This document shows positions 42,992 through 52,673 of a stretch of 64,000 nt of DNA, piece after piece. Each line of letters begins with the position of its first letter. The first letter of the stretch is position 1. Source of the stretch: Cystobasidiopsis lactophilus (taxonomy: Eukaryota; Basidiomycota; Agaricostilbomycetes; Agaricostilbales; Chionosphaeraceae); NCBI GenBank assembly GCA_001599975.1, contig BCIO01000002.1, positions 3,483,883-3,547,882 of the forward strand. The letters are read 5' to 3'. The notes beneath the pieces were generated by a model, which saw only the letters and a list, made by a program, of their open reading frames with translations, was not told the origin of the DNA and ran no database searches. The translations under genes and the position numbers were made by a program.

Positions 42992-45900
42992 TCAGCGCTG
43001 GTAGGGCGATTTCCAGCTGTGGCGTCAACTTGAGCGCTCGCTCCAAATCAAAGCCGATTTCGACAACGCACCTCGGGGAAGCAAGCTTTGCGGGAGAGTA
43101 AGACGGAGCCTGTGGGGAAGAAGCGCCAGCCGGGGAATAGCTGGGCTGCAAGTTCAAAGGCGTAAGTCCAGAGCTCCCCTTGGAGTCCGCGGCAAAACCT
43201 ACCGACGCAGGCGCTGTAATGGAACCCAGTCAGCTTCCGCGGCCTTTGCAGCATCGAAAGAGAAGGAAAAGGCTTACAGAATTGGGGCGAAGTGGGCTGT
43301 GCGCGCCAAAGCGGCGGAAGTCAGTAACGCCTTCGATCCCAAGAAGGCTCCACTCACGCTGTAGGTAGGGCTCGTCGGCTGTTGCAAAGAGCGTTAGATA
43401 AAACATCTTGGACAGTGTAAAAGGTCGAGCGTACGCTGTAGCCTTGAGGGCTGGCCGGAGAGATCGCGCTCTGGCCGTGGCGAGTCGGCTGTGAGCAAAA
43501 TCTGTCAGCTCAGAGTATGGTTCGATGAAAGAGCTCCACGAACGCTGTACTTTGGACCTGGGAATAAAGCAGAGGTCAGTTGACCATCAAAAGGAAGAAA
43601 GACGAGGGAGACTGACTCGCTGGCGACATCCCGTTGAAGGAGGGCGACGCTCCGCCCTTTGGCGAGGTCGGCGAGTACCTGACCACGTCCAAATCAGCCT
43701 TTTCTTATCCATGGGACCGTTGGAGGGAGCGACTGACCTCGGCGAGCTTGGAGAATAGCGAGGGCTCGCAGCTGAGAAAACATGTGAGCCTTTCTTCGGC
43801 AACCCGTCAGGTCGTACGCACGCGAGAACTGTGGGGAGGTGAGCTATAGACTCTCATCAGCATCGTAAAGACTTGGAAGAGGTGCTGGGCGACTCACGTT
43901 GTAGCGAGGCGCTTTTTGGGAAGGCAGGAAAGTCAAATTGAGACCAGCTTGCGGCAAATGTCGCTTAAACTTACAGGCAGGCTGCGAAAATTGATCAAGT
44001 CAGCTCGTGTGCATTCTAAGGGTGTCAGAACGTCAGTAAACGCACAGAGAAGTTCGGACTGGCGGGCTGTGACGCGAAAGGGAAGCCAGCATGAGGAACT
44101 CGGCTCGGTGGACCTCAAACACGAGCCAACTCACGGAAAATGAAGGAGCTGAGCGCAGAGACTTTGTAAGACCGACGCCAGGTCAGCGAAGAAGAGAGGG
44201 GAAAATCTTACAAGCAGGCTGTAAAGCAATAAGAGATGTCAGTTTAGAATCGCAAAGTCAGCTGAAGGCGAGCACGCACGCTGAAATTGGGCGCTGGAAG
44301 CGTAGAGAAGACGTTGTGAGACCAGAGAGCGGTCAAAATCGCGGGAAAACTCACAGGCAGGCTGTGAAAAAAATTAAAGTCGTCAAATTCAAGTCGCACT
44401 CGTTCAAAGAGACCGCGAAAACGCACAGAAAAGTTCGGCGCTTTTTGAATGAGAGGCTTGGTAAGTCTCTGACCATGTCAGCGAAGAATGAGACCCACAG
44501 GAAGGCTGCGAAGAGGAAGCGGTCAGATCAAGGTCCCCGTCAACATTGGCCGAGGCCAAAGGAGCAAGGCAACGCACGGAAAATGAAGGAGCTGAGCGCA
44601 GACGCTTGGTAAGACCAGGAAACGGTCAACACAAGGACAAGACCTACACGAAGGCTGCAAAAGGACCGAACAAAGCTAAGTTCGCGGCACCCGAATGACA
44701 ACGAAGTGCAAGAACTCACACTCCAATTTGGCGACGCCGGTGAGAATCCTGGCGAGGTGCTGCCAATGTTGGGCCGCGTTGGCGAATAGACGCCGCTGCG
44801 TGCGCCGGTGCCGCGGTCGACCCAAGGCGAGGTTGGCGATGTGCCAAAGCCCGGCGACGTTGGATTGTACATTGGACTCGCTGGGGCGTCTGTAAGTGCA
44901 ACAGAGGCATCATTGAGTTCCTGAGAAGGATCAAACGCAAAACCGAAGGAAGACTCACAGCCTGGCGAAGTGGGCGCAAGATAGCCAGGCGAGGTGCCGC
45001 CGCCATAGGCAGGGCTGGCCGGTGAATACCCTGGCGAAAAATTGTAGCCAGGGCTCTGGCCATAGCCCGAGTAGGTTGTCGAGCCGCCGTAGCCTTCTTC
45101 ACCGCCGCCCACGTGCAACGGCGACCAAGGAGCATTTTCAAAGCCTATGCCTCCCGGTTGCATGGGCGTCTTGCTGCCGGCATCGATGTAAGGGGTCGCC
45201 GCGCCACCTGGTGTCATGGCGCCAGCCATGGCTGCTTCGCTCAGAGTTGCCGCCACCGGCAAGCGATGGTCCAGGACAACGTCCTTCAGCATGTCGACAT
45301 CGAGCATAACAGCTGTGCGCGGCCAGAAATTAGCGATGGGTCCAGTAATGGCACAGGGAAGGAAGACGAACAGCAAGCGCCAGTGCCCAAAGGAGCCAGC
45401 TGCGCCAGCAGCACATTTTCTGCGACGCCCTTGCAATCGTCCTTCTCGCCAATGGAAGCTGCCTCCATCAAAATCTCGACGGTCTCTTCGAACGAGCAAC
45501 GCATGAGAGCGCCAGTGTCAGCTCGGTTGATGCCGTGGCGCGTGATGGCCATCAAAGTGCCGCGCGAGGTCATCAGGTCGCACAAAAGAGCCAGATGTCG
45601 GTAGTTGACGTACGAGCCATCAAACTCGATGACCTGGCGCAGTTCGCGCAGCAGAGAGGCTCGGCCGGCTTCGATGCCCAGCACTTCGGTGATTTCGACG
45701 CACGAGTTCGAGTAGGTGCGGACGGGATCGACGCCATCCACGGAGAGCACCTTCTTGAGGTTGATGCCGTCAGTTTCAAGCACCCACTCGTCCTGCGTCG
45801 TCAGCTCGCCAGTCTGGGAGATGATGCCCTTCGGCTTCTCGACCAAGAAGGCGCGCGAGATGCCTTCGATGCCGCCTAGCGACACCTCGTCCAGCATGGA

Positions 45901-48900
45901 CGCCTCCAGCTGCTTCAAAAGCACGTCTTCCTCCTCCATCTCCTCCATCGCCTCCTTGTCCTCGTTGACCGCTCGGCAGCGAATGACCAGCTTGTCCGCA
46001 TTGTCTTCCGACCAGATGACGAACATGTCCTTGTTGAAGACGCTCGAGATCTTGCTGGCAACAGTCGACATCTCGAGGTTCTTGTCCAGCATCTTGGCGC
46101 GGTCGAGCTCGAAACGCAAGAGCCAAGGCGATTGCTTGTCCATGTTCATCTCGACTTCGGGATCCGGAATGGCAAAGAACGCTTCAACCATGTCCTTGTC
46201 GTCGTCGATGACCGTGGCGCTCGGGTCGGGGTCGTAGAAGATCTCGACGGACGATGTGACCGTCTTGAGGGTGGTGTGCGCCAGCTCGGTCTGAACCGAC
46301 TTGGCGCCCATCATGTCGCGCGCCTTGCTCTGGTCGAGGTAGACGTAGGTGACGGGCGTCTTCAGGTTGCGGGCGACGTTGATGATCTCCTTTAATCGGG
46401 GCACACCGAGCGTGACGTTCTTGGACGAGACACCGGCGTAATGGAAAGTGTTGAGCGTCATCTGCGTGGCCGGTTCACCGATAGACTGCGCCGCCAAGGT
46501 GCCGCACATCTCGCCAGGAGCCGCCAAAGACTGGTTGAAGCGGGCTTCGACTTCTCCCATCACCCATTCGAAGGCCTCCCTGTTGAGGTGGTCCTCCTCC
46601 AAAACGCGCCGCGCAGCCAGGTTGGCCCGCAAGTGCATCCTGAAAAGCAGCGTGATGTTGTCCTGTGCTTCCGCGCTGATAGCGTCAGAACCTCGGACGA
46701 CGATTAAGCGGGCGCAGAGGTCTTGCACGGCGGTGACAATGTCGGCCGGTGGTAAGTCGGAAGGCTTGCGGCGGTCGATGTGGAAGATCTGGCGGGCATT
46801 GTGGATGATGCGCCGGATGTTGACAGGAAGACGGACGCGAGGGTTGGCTGCCTCGAAGATAAAGTCGCGCAGCAGAGCTCGGTCTTGGCGCAGGCGGTCG
46901 TACTCTTCGTCTAGAATTGCCTGCAGTTCTAGCGAGGTGCTGTCGACGCCGACTTGGATGATGCCACGCTTGAATGCGTATTCGGGTTCGGTCACATCGA
47001 CGCGGAATGTCTTCTCGAAGCGAGCGTCGGAAAGCGAGTAGGTGGGCAGTCGTTGCTCTTCAAACGCCGCACCGTCCATGCCATCTTCGCCGTACGCAAA
47101 CTGGATGATTTGGCTGAGCGAGTTCCGGACCGTGCCGTCGTAGGTGACGCCAACGTCCTCCAAAGCCTTGACCAAACGGCGCTGGATGTAACCAGTCTCG
47201 GCGGTCTTGACGGCCGTGTCGATCAACCCTTCTCGTCCGGCCATGGCGTGGAAGAAAAACTCTTGCGGAGTGAGACCTCGGAGATACGAGTTCTCGACGA
47301 AGCCGCGCGACTCTGGCGAGTAGTCGTCCTTCGCGAAATGCGGCAGAGTTCGATACTTGAAACCGAAGGGGATGCGCTTGCCCTCAACGGATTGCTGACC
47401 GACGACGGCCGACATCTGGGAGATGTTGATGAAGGATCCCTTGGAGCCAGCAATGACCATCTGCTTGACGTTGTTGTCGTTCTTCAAACTGCCTTCGGCT
47501 GACTTGCCGGCCGAATCACGAGCGTCATCCAGTGCCTTCTTGACCTTGGACTCGAACGACTCGCGGATGGTCATGCCCGGCATGGCTTCGAGCTGGTCCA
47601 TCTGGGCCGACTGGATCACATTGGCGACCTTGCGCTTGGCGGTCATGATGAACCGGGTGATGGCCGCCATGGTGCTGGTGTCGGCAATCGTGTCGCCAAT
47701 ACCGATGGAGAAGCCGTTGTGGAGCAGCCAGTAGTTGACAACCTGTTGAAATTTTGTCAGAACAAGTCAAAGGACTTTCGGACAGACTCAGACCAACCTT
47801 TTGAAGGGCGCCAAAGAGGTCCCTGGTGGCGATTGCCCCCTTCTCTCTAAAGAGGACATCCACCAGGCCGCCGGCTGAAGCACCAGCCACCTTCTTCGCC
47901 ACAACACCGTAAAGGATGTCGCCATCCTCGATGAGCATGCCCTCGTCTTTAGGATTTGACGCAGGCGAGCCATCTTCCATGGCCTGGGCGATGTTGATGC
48001 CTTTGGGAATGCACATGCTGAGGATCTGCTTGCCAGTCCAGAGCGGCTTCGGCTTGATGATGGCCGGTGGTGGAACGACGCCGTCCCAGTTAGGCACCCA
48101 GAGCAAGATGTTCTGGACAAACTCGCTGTCCATGAAGCAGTCGCGCAGCGTGAATTTACGAATGCCGCAAAGCGTGTCCTGGACGATGCCCATGACCGGC
48201 TTGTTGGCTTGAGGGGAGATGATTTGGCGGGGCACCCAAGCGATCTCTTTGAGCTCGGCTCGGGTCTCCTCCGATTGGGGGACGTGAAGGTTCATTTCGT
48301 CGCCGTCGAAGCTGCAGATCATTTTAGAGACTTTCGGCTCGAGCCAAGAAATTGCACTCACTCGGCGTTATAAGGTCTGCCCGCATCGGATGCGAGTAAG
48401 CCAAGGGCTTGCTTCTAATGGAACACAATACGCACGACTGACAAGGACGAAATCAGCATGGGCGCATAAATGAAGATGAGGCAGCAAGCTTACTGTTACA
48501 GAGAGATTCAGGCGGAACGTCGAGTACTCCATGAGCTTAACTCGATGCGCCACTGTGAGAGGCGGGGAAAGGCACTCAGAACAAAAAACAGAGTCCAAAG
48601 GGAAGAGGAGCCTTCTCACTCATTGACATTTTGTGGAGAGAGGGCTGCCGGTTGAAGAGCACGATGTCGCCGTCTTGCAAGTGGCGCTCGACGATCCAAC
48701 CGTACTGCAGAAAGGTGGCGTTGTCTTGGGACTTGGTGTAGCGCAGGTCGATGCGGTCGCCCGAGTCCTTAACAATGTACCGCGCACCGGGGTGCTCGTC
48801 CGGCCCGCGCATGACCAGCTCTCGGAGGGCGGCAATGTTGTAGGGCGTCACCCGCTCCGGGTAGGTCAGGTTGCGGGCGATGGACTTGGGGACACCGACT

Positions 48901-50946: not shown

Positions 50947-52673
50947 ATGTCCGGAGAACAAGAAGGCATTGGCGGCTACCCGGCCGCCTTTCCCACCTAC
51001 CCTAACCAGCCTGGGCCACCGCCAGAGAAGAAGCGGGCCCATCTGTATGTGGGCAATCTGTCGGCCAGGGTGACCGAGTACATGCTCCAGGTCCGTCTGA
51101 GTCGTATTACGCTTCTCCGCTCCCGTTTTGAACTGACAGCTTTTCCGCTTCTCAGGAAATCTTTGCGGTCACTGGCGCAGTGTGCGTTTGCCTTCTCTCA
51201 AGTAGTTGTAGGACTCGGAGCTTAAAAAGGACCGGCGGAGACAGGCTCGGCGTCAAAATCATTCCAGACAGGAATTTCCAGCACGGCGGCCTCAACTATG
51301 GCTTTGTTCGTGGCCTTCATCCTCTTCTGCAACGTACTGGTACGGGTGCTGACTGTTGTTGACGGACAGGTCGAGTACCACGAGATGAAGGCCGCCGAAG
51401 CCGCCATCCAAACCCTCAATGGCCGCAAGATTTTCGACACCGAGATCAAGGTCAACTGGGCCTACCAAAACCAGACGAGCAAGGAGGACCTGACCAACCA
51501 CTGCCAGTGCGTCTCAATTTTGAGCCAATCTGCGGGCTTTATGACCCGAATCCGAGCTCATTCATGCGCATGAATTTTAGCATTTTCGTTGGCGACCTCT
51601 CGCCCGAGGTCAACGACGAGGTCCTGCGCAAGACTTTCCAGGCCTTCGGCTCCTTGTCAGACGCTAGGGTCATGTGGGACATGAACTCGGGCAAATCCCG
51701 CGGCTATGGCTTCTTGGCCTTCCGCGATCGCACCGACGCCGAGCAGGCCATCGCCACCATGAACGGCGAGTGGCTGGGCTCGAGGGCCATCAGGGTCAAC
51801 TACGCCAATCAAAAGACGGCCGGTAGCGCTGGCGGACCGGGCGGCGTGCCTGGACCTTCGTATGGCTCGGGAGGAGGAGGCGGTGGCGGAGGCGGCGCGC
51901 CGAGCGGCCAGCCGTCCATGCCCATGATGCAGCTGCAGCCCGCCATGCCACCGATGGGCATGCAGCAACAACAACCACAGCAGCCCCAGCAGTATGCCCA
52001 GCCAGGCGGCGCCTCTTACGAAGTCGTCGTCCAGCAAACGCCCTCTTACAACAGCACCGTTTACGTCGGCAACATTGTCCCCTACGCCACCCAAAACGAT
52101 CTCATCCCCCTCTTCCAGTCCTTCGGCTACATCGTCGAGATCCGGATGCAGTCCGACCGCGGCTTCGCGTTCGTCAAGCTCGACACCCACGAGAACGCGG
52201 CCATGGCCATCGTCAACCTGCAAGGCACCCCTATCCACGGCCGAGCCATCAAGTGCTCGTGGGGCAAGGACACTGGCGGAGCTGCTCAGGCGGCGGCCGC
52301 TGCTGCCGCTGGTGTGGTCCCTCAACAAGCGGCCTACCCTGCTGTATGTTCTAGCTTCCTCCGTTAAATGATTTACCTGAGCATTGCGACAATATACAGC
52401 AGCCGCAAGCCGCGTATGGCCAGCCAGACTATTCTCAATCGCCCTACGGCCCGCCGGACGCCAACGCTCTCGCCTACGCCGCTCAATGGGCCAACGGCGA
52501 CCCGAACCTCATGGTCCAATATGCCATTTACTACCAGCAACAGCAAGCCGCGTATGTTGACGTTTACTTTTGAGCTTGGCAACTCGGGCTCATTGACTGA
52601 TCTCAAATGCAGGTACTACCAACAGCAAGCGGCAGCAGCTGCGGCAGGAGGTGCTGCGCCCGCTGCTCAGTGA
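50947..52673 (+). CDS. PUB1/TIA1-like RNA-binding protein with three RRMs
   Basis: The start MSGEQEGIGGYPAAFPTYPN precedes three RRM domains. RRM1: HLYVGNLSARVTEYMLQ, VKIIPDRNFQHGGLNYGFVE then YHEMKAAEAAIQTLNGRKIF. RRM2: IFVGDLSPEVNDEVLRKTFQ, SRGYGFLAFRDRTDAEQAIA. A Gly/Met/Gln-rich linker leads to RRM3: TVYVGNIVPYATQNDLIPLF, DRGFAFVKLDTHENAAMAIV. RNP1 and RNP2 aromatics are intact. The C-terminus is Ala/Gln/Tyr-rich and prion-like (QWANGDPNLMVQYAIYYQQQ). Such proteins bind U-rich RNA in stress granules and in mRNA stability and splicing control. Introns lie near 51090-51154, 51182-51255, 51305-51370, 51511-51579, 52344-52400 and 52553-52612. Stop TGA is at 52671-52673. Nam8-type splicing roles are an alternative. 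Confidence 0.9.
51560..51575. repeat. 16-bp perfect palindrome ATTCATGCGCATGAAT (copy 1)
   Basis: Lies inside an intron of the PUB1-like gene, just before the acceptor. The same 16-mer recurs within a 20-bp palindrome at 62063-62082. Two copies of one 16-bp palindrome in 64 kb is more than chance would give. Confidence 0.7.

Follow-up and report, generated by a model that had tools for sequence, protein, structure and literature searches.

How is the C-terminal tail (CTD) of RPB1 encoded at a locus where its seven-residue repeats seem to be cut by introns into exons of 7 and 14 nt, how would such exons be spliced, and how could they have arisen? The CTD of the mRNA-making polymerase helps organise splicing. 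In the window, by which we mean the whole stretch of 64,000 nucleotides that was analysed, the first-pass annotation had identified an RPB1 CTD with 7- and 14-nt exons in matching phases. Our gene model, a genome-wide pattern search, spliced alignments and shuffled controls support that identification. We favour the following reading, with a probability of about 0.8: the locus would be a Pucciniomycotina RPB1 gene, with a CTD broken by short spliceosomal introns, built from a duplicated intron-bearing unit and spliced by intron definition, mostly constitutively.

The RPB1 gene and the layout of its tail

We assembled the RPB1 model manually, guided by conserved motifs of the protein and by GT-AG borders, so that every intron has GT-AG ends by construction. 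This hand-built model lies on the minus strand with a coding span of 50527-42992 and comprises 35 exons, 34 introns and 1796 aa. Its assignment draws on Pfam domains and homologue identities. The Pfam Rpb1 domains 4, 5, 6 and 7 were detected in the longest exon, read in its open frame, and an upstream exon found its best matches among solved RPB1 chains. The spliced model contains the NADFDGD catalytic motif that marks RPB1, and its last 323 residues form a heptad tail with 17 SPxSP motifs and 50 SP pairs. Homologues were 59-68% identical among the best 120 of 7758 matches in a full-length search. Looking there for transcript-derived proteins of the same species, we found none above 68% identity among those 120. 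The C-terminal search gave none above 63% identity at a query coverage of at least 70% among its best 120 of 885 matches, and one match of 79% that covered 26% of the query.

Searching the genome with the polymerase domain, we obtained seven matches at three loci, with the RPB1 locus on top at 337.7 bits. For the remaining two loci, the best structure-database matches were subunits of RNA polymerases III and I; the RPB1 in the window is thus not a spare copy. The window locus was found to be the sole RPB1 detected in the 22-Mb genome.

The introns of this gene are crowded into its tail, with 22 in the 323 CTD codons versus 12 in the 1473 core codons. Twenty of them (introns 14-33, each 50-72 nt, 1226 nt in total) lie between 43146 and 44719, as the first-pass annotation had counted and sized them. 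The coding sequence of this array had been put at 363 nt and is corrected here to 348 nt in 19 exons. The resulting intron to exon ratio of 3.5 to 1 agrees with the earlier statement that introns outnumber coding bases more than threefold. CTD introns 13 and 34 fall outside the array. A 170-nt CTD exon of degenerate heptads (44720-44889, minus strand) stands upstream of it. Intron 34 and the two final exons, of 74 nt and of 25 nt including the stop, occupy 42992-43145 on the same strand, and they give the protein the tail end PSWKSPYQR; relatives end in PSWSR or PAWQR, for example.

We ran a custom protein-to-DNA aligner blind to the model, permitting GT-AG introns of 40-140 nt and leaving exon size unrestricted. 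The queries were P0008 (the RPB1 of a relative), P0003 (Puccinia graminis RPB1) and P0006 (a Microbotryomycetes RPB1). Five heptads had been proposed to consist of 7 nt, an intron and 14 nt, and all five could be located on the minus strand. The first, PSSPSFS (44654-44578), joins a 7-nt exon (44654-44648) across intron 15 (56 nt) to a 14-nt exon (44591-44578); it was recovered with P0008 and P0003, and its 7-nt exon was missed with P0006. The next three were recovered in all three alignments. These are PSSPNFS at 44505-44427 (7 nt at 44505-44499, intron 17 of 58 nt, 14 nt at 44440-44427), PASPNFS at 44361-44280 (7 nt at 44361-44355, intron 19 of 61 nt, 14 nt at 44293-44280) and PASPSFS at 44218-44135 (7 nt at 44218-44212, intron 21 of 63 nt, 14 nt at 44148-44135). 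The fifth split heptad is unit 6 of the run, PASPRYN at 43981-43898 (7 nt at 43981-43975, intron 24 of 63 nt, 14 nt at 43911-43898). P0008 and P0006 recovered it, and P0003 skipped its 7-nt exon.

The strict alternation of 7- and 14-nt exons holds for these five heptads and fails at one place. Unit 5, a second PASPNFS, is a single 21-nt exon without an inner intron (44066-44046, minus strand) and sits between the fourth and fifth split heptads, so the alternation is imperfect. Both of its borders were recovered with P0008 and P0006; P0003 links it to another downstream exon. One further exon of each size, the sixth of 7 nt and the sixth of 14 nt, also stands outside the alternation. The former (43828-43822) is in another heptad register, encoding FS and the first base of a P codon; it was recovered with P0008, skipped with P0003 and given another start with P0006. 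The latter (43557-43544) keeps the register of the other 14-nt exons, with its 7-nt part fused to the preceding exon; P0008 and P0003 recovered it, and P0006 drew other borders. After the sixth 7-nt exon the sizes run 34, 62, 14, 54, 21, 19 and 11 nt, the last three at 43378-43358, 43296-43278 and 43213-43203 within 43203-43378 of the minus strand.

Thus, the array contains 13 consecutive exons of at most 34 nt, six of which are 7 nt long. Placing the introns on the heptad by eye, we find 10 of the 20 after residue 2 (phase 0), one of these following Asn instead of Ser, and 6 of the 20 within the Ser codon of residue 5 (phase 1). RTATCC is the U12-type donor motif, and the printed donors do not fit it; position +5 is G in all 34 RPB1 introns, including the 22 of the CTD. 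Taking micro-exons as internal exons of at most 27 nt, the threshold used in the excerpted text of PMC8378409, the predicted exons of 7, 14, 21, 19, 11, 2 and 15 nt in this gene belong to that class, and the three spliced alignments concur on most of them.

The splicing model set against chance and artefact

Performing a genome-wide search for the splice sites combined with the 7/14 heptad pattern, we obtained five matches in 22.1 Mb, all five of them in the array, and none in the reversed control. The spliced alignments returned most of the model. P0008 recovered 32 of the 34 introns with no extra one, P0003 recovered 29 with 2 extra (7-nt exons 24 and 26 being skipped), and P0006 recovered 26 with 5 extra. 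Intron 34 was recovered by none of the three, and intron 33, after the 11-nt exon, by P0003 alone. Within the CTD, departures of P0003 and P0006 from the model are to be expected with repeats, yet they probably leave single borders open. On the array, the CTD alignments scored 211.5 with P0008 and 249.5 with P0003, and these values fell to 61 and 59 when introns were forbidden. Dinucleotide shuffles of the array (60 for each query) reached at most 71.5 and 58, respectively. With spliced scores far above the shuffles and a genome pattern of five against zero, the earlier assertion that the array cannot be a product of chance is well supported.

We also looked at the intron ends. The acceptors of the RPB1 introns are CAG, except in one core intron that ends in TAG and two array introns that end in AAG. 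Near the 3′ end, 16 of the 20 array introns carry YTGAY (shuffles: mean 6.4, maximum 12), 17 carry YTDAC (mean 6.9, maximum 12) and 11 carry CTRAC (mean 2.5, maximum 8). Array introns 14 and 22 contain none of the three motifs. Core introns show YTGAY in 4/12, YTDAC in 5/12 and CTRAC in 1/12; with YTGAY in so few of them, there is no firm branch rule in RPB1. A scan of the window against Rfam gave no match at the gathering thresholds.

Could the region be spliced otherwise, leaving a short RPB1 CTD, or could the block be decaying sequence? The unspliced frame does continue for 59 codons past exon 14 until a stop, and the splicing model is read from sequence alone. We nevertheless consider such an artefact extremely unlikely. 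The heptad-like protein appears solely on joining the 7- and 14-nt exons, with the Ser codon split in five units, and the genome pattern and shuffle scores speak against chance. Moreover, no second RPB1 was detected in the genome, and the downstream exons carry on with good heptads to a relative-like end.

Short exons also occur outside the tail. In the catalytic core, a 2-nt exon, TC (48436-48437, minus strand), would complete the serine of SVTSPYNADFDGD, and the exon next to it has 15 nt (48362-48376, minus strand). Both were recovered by all three spliced alignments. The 2-nt exon is the sole candidate of 1-11 nt between AG and GT at that place which gives the expected single serine; an alternative 11-nt in-frame exon would read SCVL. 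The two exons adjoin the catalytic DFDGD loop (48494-48311, minus strand), and an intron interrupts the codon for the first Asp of DFDGD as well.

Among the 15-16 exons of PRP8 (L031) are two short ones, of 19 and 17 nt, seen in spliced alignments with each of three queries. VAC8 has eight exons, the shortest of 37 nt. Tiny exons are thus present in two of the three genes examined (RPB1 and PRP8, not VAC8). The notion that micro-exons are a trait of the CTD was rejected, since those of the RPB1 core (2 and 15 nt) and of PRP8 (19 and 17 nt) show that short exons are not confined to it. What appears unusual is the dense run of micro-exons in register with the protein repeat, and not the isolated micro-exons.

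Relatives and the origin of the array

A tree placed this RPB1 inside Pucciniomycotina (100/99) and beside Mixia (93/89; both on long branches). Its spliced heptads resemble the F-type heptads of rusts, such as FSPASPNFSPASPNF in Puccinia. The CTDs of other basidiomycete RPB1 proteins are of the same protein and heptad type, and we compared them through database ORF proteins. Three of these, P0121, P0122 and P0127 (ORFs on contigs of 9.4, 42 and 9.5 kb), belong to another Pucciniomycotina lineage, in a clade with P0008 and P0123 (100/98), and read a similar heptad block as one reading frame. The ORFs P0129, P0137 and P0138 also traverse the block; P0137 and P0138 group with Agaricomycetes in the tree, and P0129 was put there by eye. 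Their heptads end at SPASPR followed by C, which is the likely counterpart of the phase-2 intron 27 that splits an Arg codon in the window gene. All six read similar heptads without the introns of the array, a reading that is favoured by non-CTD ends suggestive of plain ORFs and that a splicing gene caller would weaken. As the homologous heptads are unbroken in these ORFs, the fragmented block looks derived in this lineage, although intron loss in the other lineages, instead of gain here, may account for the same pattern.

The annotated proteins of relatives have defects of their own. The stretch from SVT to DFDGDEMN is intact in 115 of the 120 RPB1 proteins listed, and three of the five without it are among the 16 listed rows classed as Pucciniomycotina. 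Phakopsora RPB1 skips the stretch, the Atractiella frame is shifted, and in Puccinia sorghi the stretch was not recognised; P0091 and P0120, outside Pucciniomycotina, also lack it in intact form. By eye, the Phenoliferia and Microbotryum entries show a shifted frame inside the CTD. In the annotated Pucciniomycotina entries P0047, P0011, P0055 and P0102, parts of the CTD or of the region between SVT and DFDGD are shifted or absent, perhaps from missed short exons. Such defective entries look like cases of missed short exons; poor assemblies can give the same.

Two observations concern neighbouring genes. The Mixia osmundae RPB1 entry, P0039, runs on into an armadillo protein resembling VAC8, two neighbouring genes having most likely been merged in that gene model; in the window genome the VAC8 match is on contig C3 and RPB1 on C2. 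Beside the window RPB1, 51507-52367 on the plus strand encodes a protein with RRM domains, which by eye we take to resemble the RNA-binding factors of the TIA1/Pub1/Nam8 type.

How could a heptad array with introns inside its repeats have formed? Repeats of 14-50 nt connect the heptad units and span exon-intron borders, the best one (50 nt at 90%) connecting units 1 and 4. Comparing the 22 CTD introns in 231 pairs, we find that the five most similar pairs are all inner-inner. The mean z of similarity is 2.6 for the 10 inner-inner pairs and 0.16 for the 35 inner-outer pairs, with the sixth inner-type intron (28) counted in the background set. The 21 outer-outer pairs show no clear excess over background, with a mean z of 0.90 versus 0.70 (45 pairs) and 0.79 (120 pairs) for the other sets. 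Thus, the inner introns look like copies of each other. Together with the repeats across exon-intron borders, this likeness makes growth by duplication of an intron-bearing heptad likely. The earlier proposal of an intron pair as the repeat unit stands for the five heptads as a layout; as an account of origin it is favoured by the inner introns and the border-crossing repeats and not by the outer introns, which are alike at background level.

Duplicating in tandem a heptad that already bore introns is likely the simplest account. One heptad would have gained two introns, an inner one of phase 1 in its residue-5 codon and an outer one of phase 0 behind residue 2. This intron-bearing heptad would then have been duplicated in tandem as a DNA unit of about 145 bp, the introns multiplying along with the repeats. 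One copy would subsequently have lost the inner intron, or would never have possessed it. Since 7 and 14 nt add up to a frame-neutral 21 nt and neither exon is neutral on its own, duplication or loss of the whole unit would be tolerated. The near-nucleosome spacing of the units (five steps of 143-153 bp and one of 85) was dropped as an explanation, because exon and intron sizes suffice for it.

The introns may instead have landed independently at equivalent heptad sites, for instance as a mobile introner-like element preferring a repeated target. The similar inner introns are what copies of one element would look like, the outer introns have no clear mutual relation, and the homologous heptads are intron-free in the database ORFs of relatives. 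Yet the repeats span exons as well as introns, and inner and outer introns are dissimilar. Furthermore, searching the genome with a 750-nt block of the array gave no copy outside it, the one extra match (52 nt) being inside the array; the search passes over very common words and took the block as a whole as its query. This absence of an outside copy is evidence against a mobile element, and the introner candidate was rejected on it. Taken together, independent arrival appears unlikely, and duplication of an intron-bearing heptad is the account that we carry forward.

Splicing logic, known parallels and significance

For 7-nt exons between introns of 50-72 nt, we infer intron definition as the natural reading. 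Each short intron of the array would be recognised individually, and splicing of the array would be mostly constitutive. Intron definition has been argued for a 1-nt exon in Arabidopsis (excerpts of PMC4674806) and proposed for worm micro-exons (excerpts of PMC8378409).

We considered whether the array might be an alternative-splicing device, in which regulated skipping of 7+14 heptads yields CTD isoforms of variable length. Computing the products, we find that omission of any of the five 7+14 pairs leaves the frame intact and shortens the protein from 1796 to 1789 residues, by exactly one heptad, as such a device would need. The micro-exons of newly described schistosome micro-exon genes, mostly symmetrical (26 of 33), have been taken as favouring alternative splicing in the excerpted text of PMC4671649. 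However, omission of one 7- or 14-nt exon is computed to shift the frame and give a product of 1803 or 1861 residues with no early stop, a costly outcome for an essential subunit, and a G at +5 in every CTD donor suits constitutive use. An isoform device is thus quite unlikely.

The array might also serve as a gate on splicing quality, where a full CTD needs accurate splicing and the CTD in turn aids splicing, so that the gene would couple the two processes of transcription and splicing in a loop. In favour of this, 116 tail codons are delimited by twenty splicing events. Genes with FF domains were found at two loci, and this domain is said to link yeast Prp40 to U1-70K. As described in parts of the respective papers, loss of human XAB2 leads to POLR2A intron retention and loss of the polymerase (PMC6735682), and micro-exon inclusion requires PRP-40 in worms and, in mouse cells, the orthologue of PRP-40 (PMC8378409). 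Against the gate, the idea is speculative and the FF proteins are known here by domain alone. In addition, many errors would escape surveillance, because 5 of the 34 introns have a length that is a multiple of 3 and lack an in-frame stop, and because skipping a single exon creates no early stop. A gate of this kind seems highly improbable to us. It is likewise very unlikely that heptad number is set by the accuracy or combination of 7+14 pair splicing and feeds back on the platform for splicing factors. Mostly constitutive splicing by intron definition remains our preferred reading.

In collagens and similar genes, one exon or exon set encodes each protein repeat, probably spread by duplication of the unit. 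The array resembles them in that exon structure tracks the protein repeat. It differs in that its repeat is seven residues long and is itself divided, by an intron of phase 1, into parts of 7 and 14 nt. The micro-exon genes (MEGs) of schistosomes are alike in that a region of protein is made of a micro-exon run between larger exons. Their exons are mostly divisible by 3, as in 26 of 33 for MEGs 26-32 in the excerpted text of PMC4671649, versus 3 of the 19 in the array (21, 54 and 21 nt), which is therefore not of the schistosome type. Schistosome MEGs also encode signal-peptide or membrane proteins; the product of the array is a conserved essential tail.

Plant micro-exons (in APC11, VPS55 and others) likewise range from 1 nt upward and are often overlooked by annotation, and include one adjacent pair of 5 and 12 nt (PMC8831610, PMC4674806). 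In the excerpts of these two papers they are single or paired, whereas the pair in the array recurs with the protein repeat. The micro-exons of basidiomycete P450 genes are also fungal, with frequent introns of 45-55 bp and a shortest exon of 6 bp; in the excerpted text they are dispersed over the gene family, without a tandem array in repeat register (PMC1184071). A functional micro-exon is described in Trichoderma, by authors who note that fungal micro-exons have been studied to a relatively limited extent (PMC11121469). A literature search, covering few subscription journals and part of the long result lists, found no RPB1 CTD encoded by such an array, in keeping with the earlier remark that no array with an intron pair as its repeat unit was known to have been described.

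The array is a natural extreme for splicing, within the sole RPB1 found in this genome. It opens to testing the order in which a spliceosome deals with many adjacent introns when exon definition is unavailable, and the question of whether protein repeats are stabilised or spread by introns lying within them. Gene finders may mispredict the CTD in this group of fungi, as several annotated relatives are shifted or have missing parts at the CTD or the catalytic loop. If the array is spliced as modelled, the fungus would need very precise splicing to produce a tail that itself helps to organise splicing.
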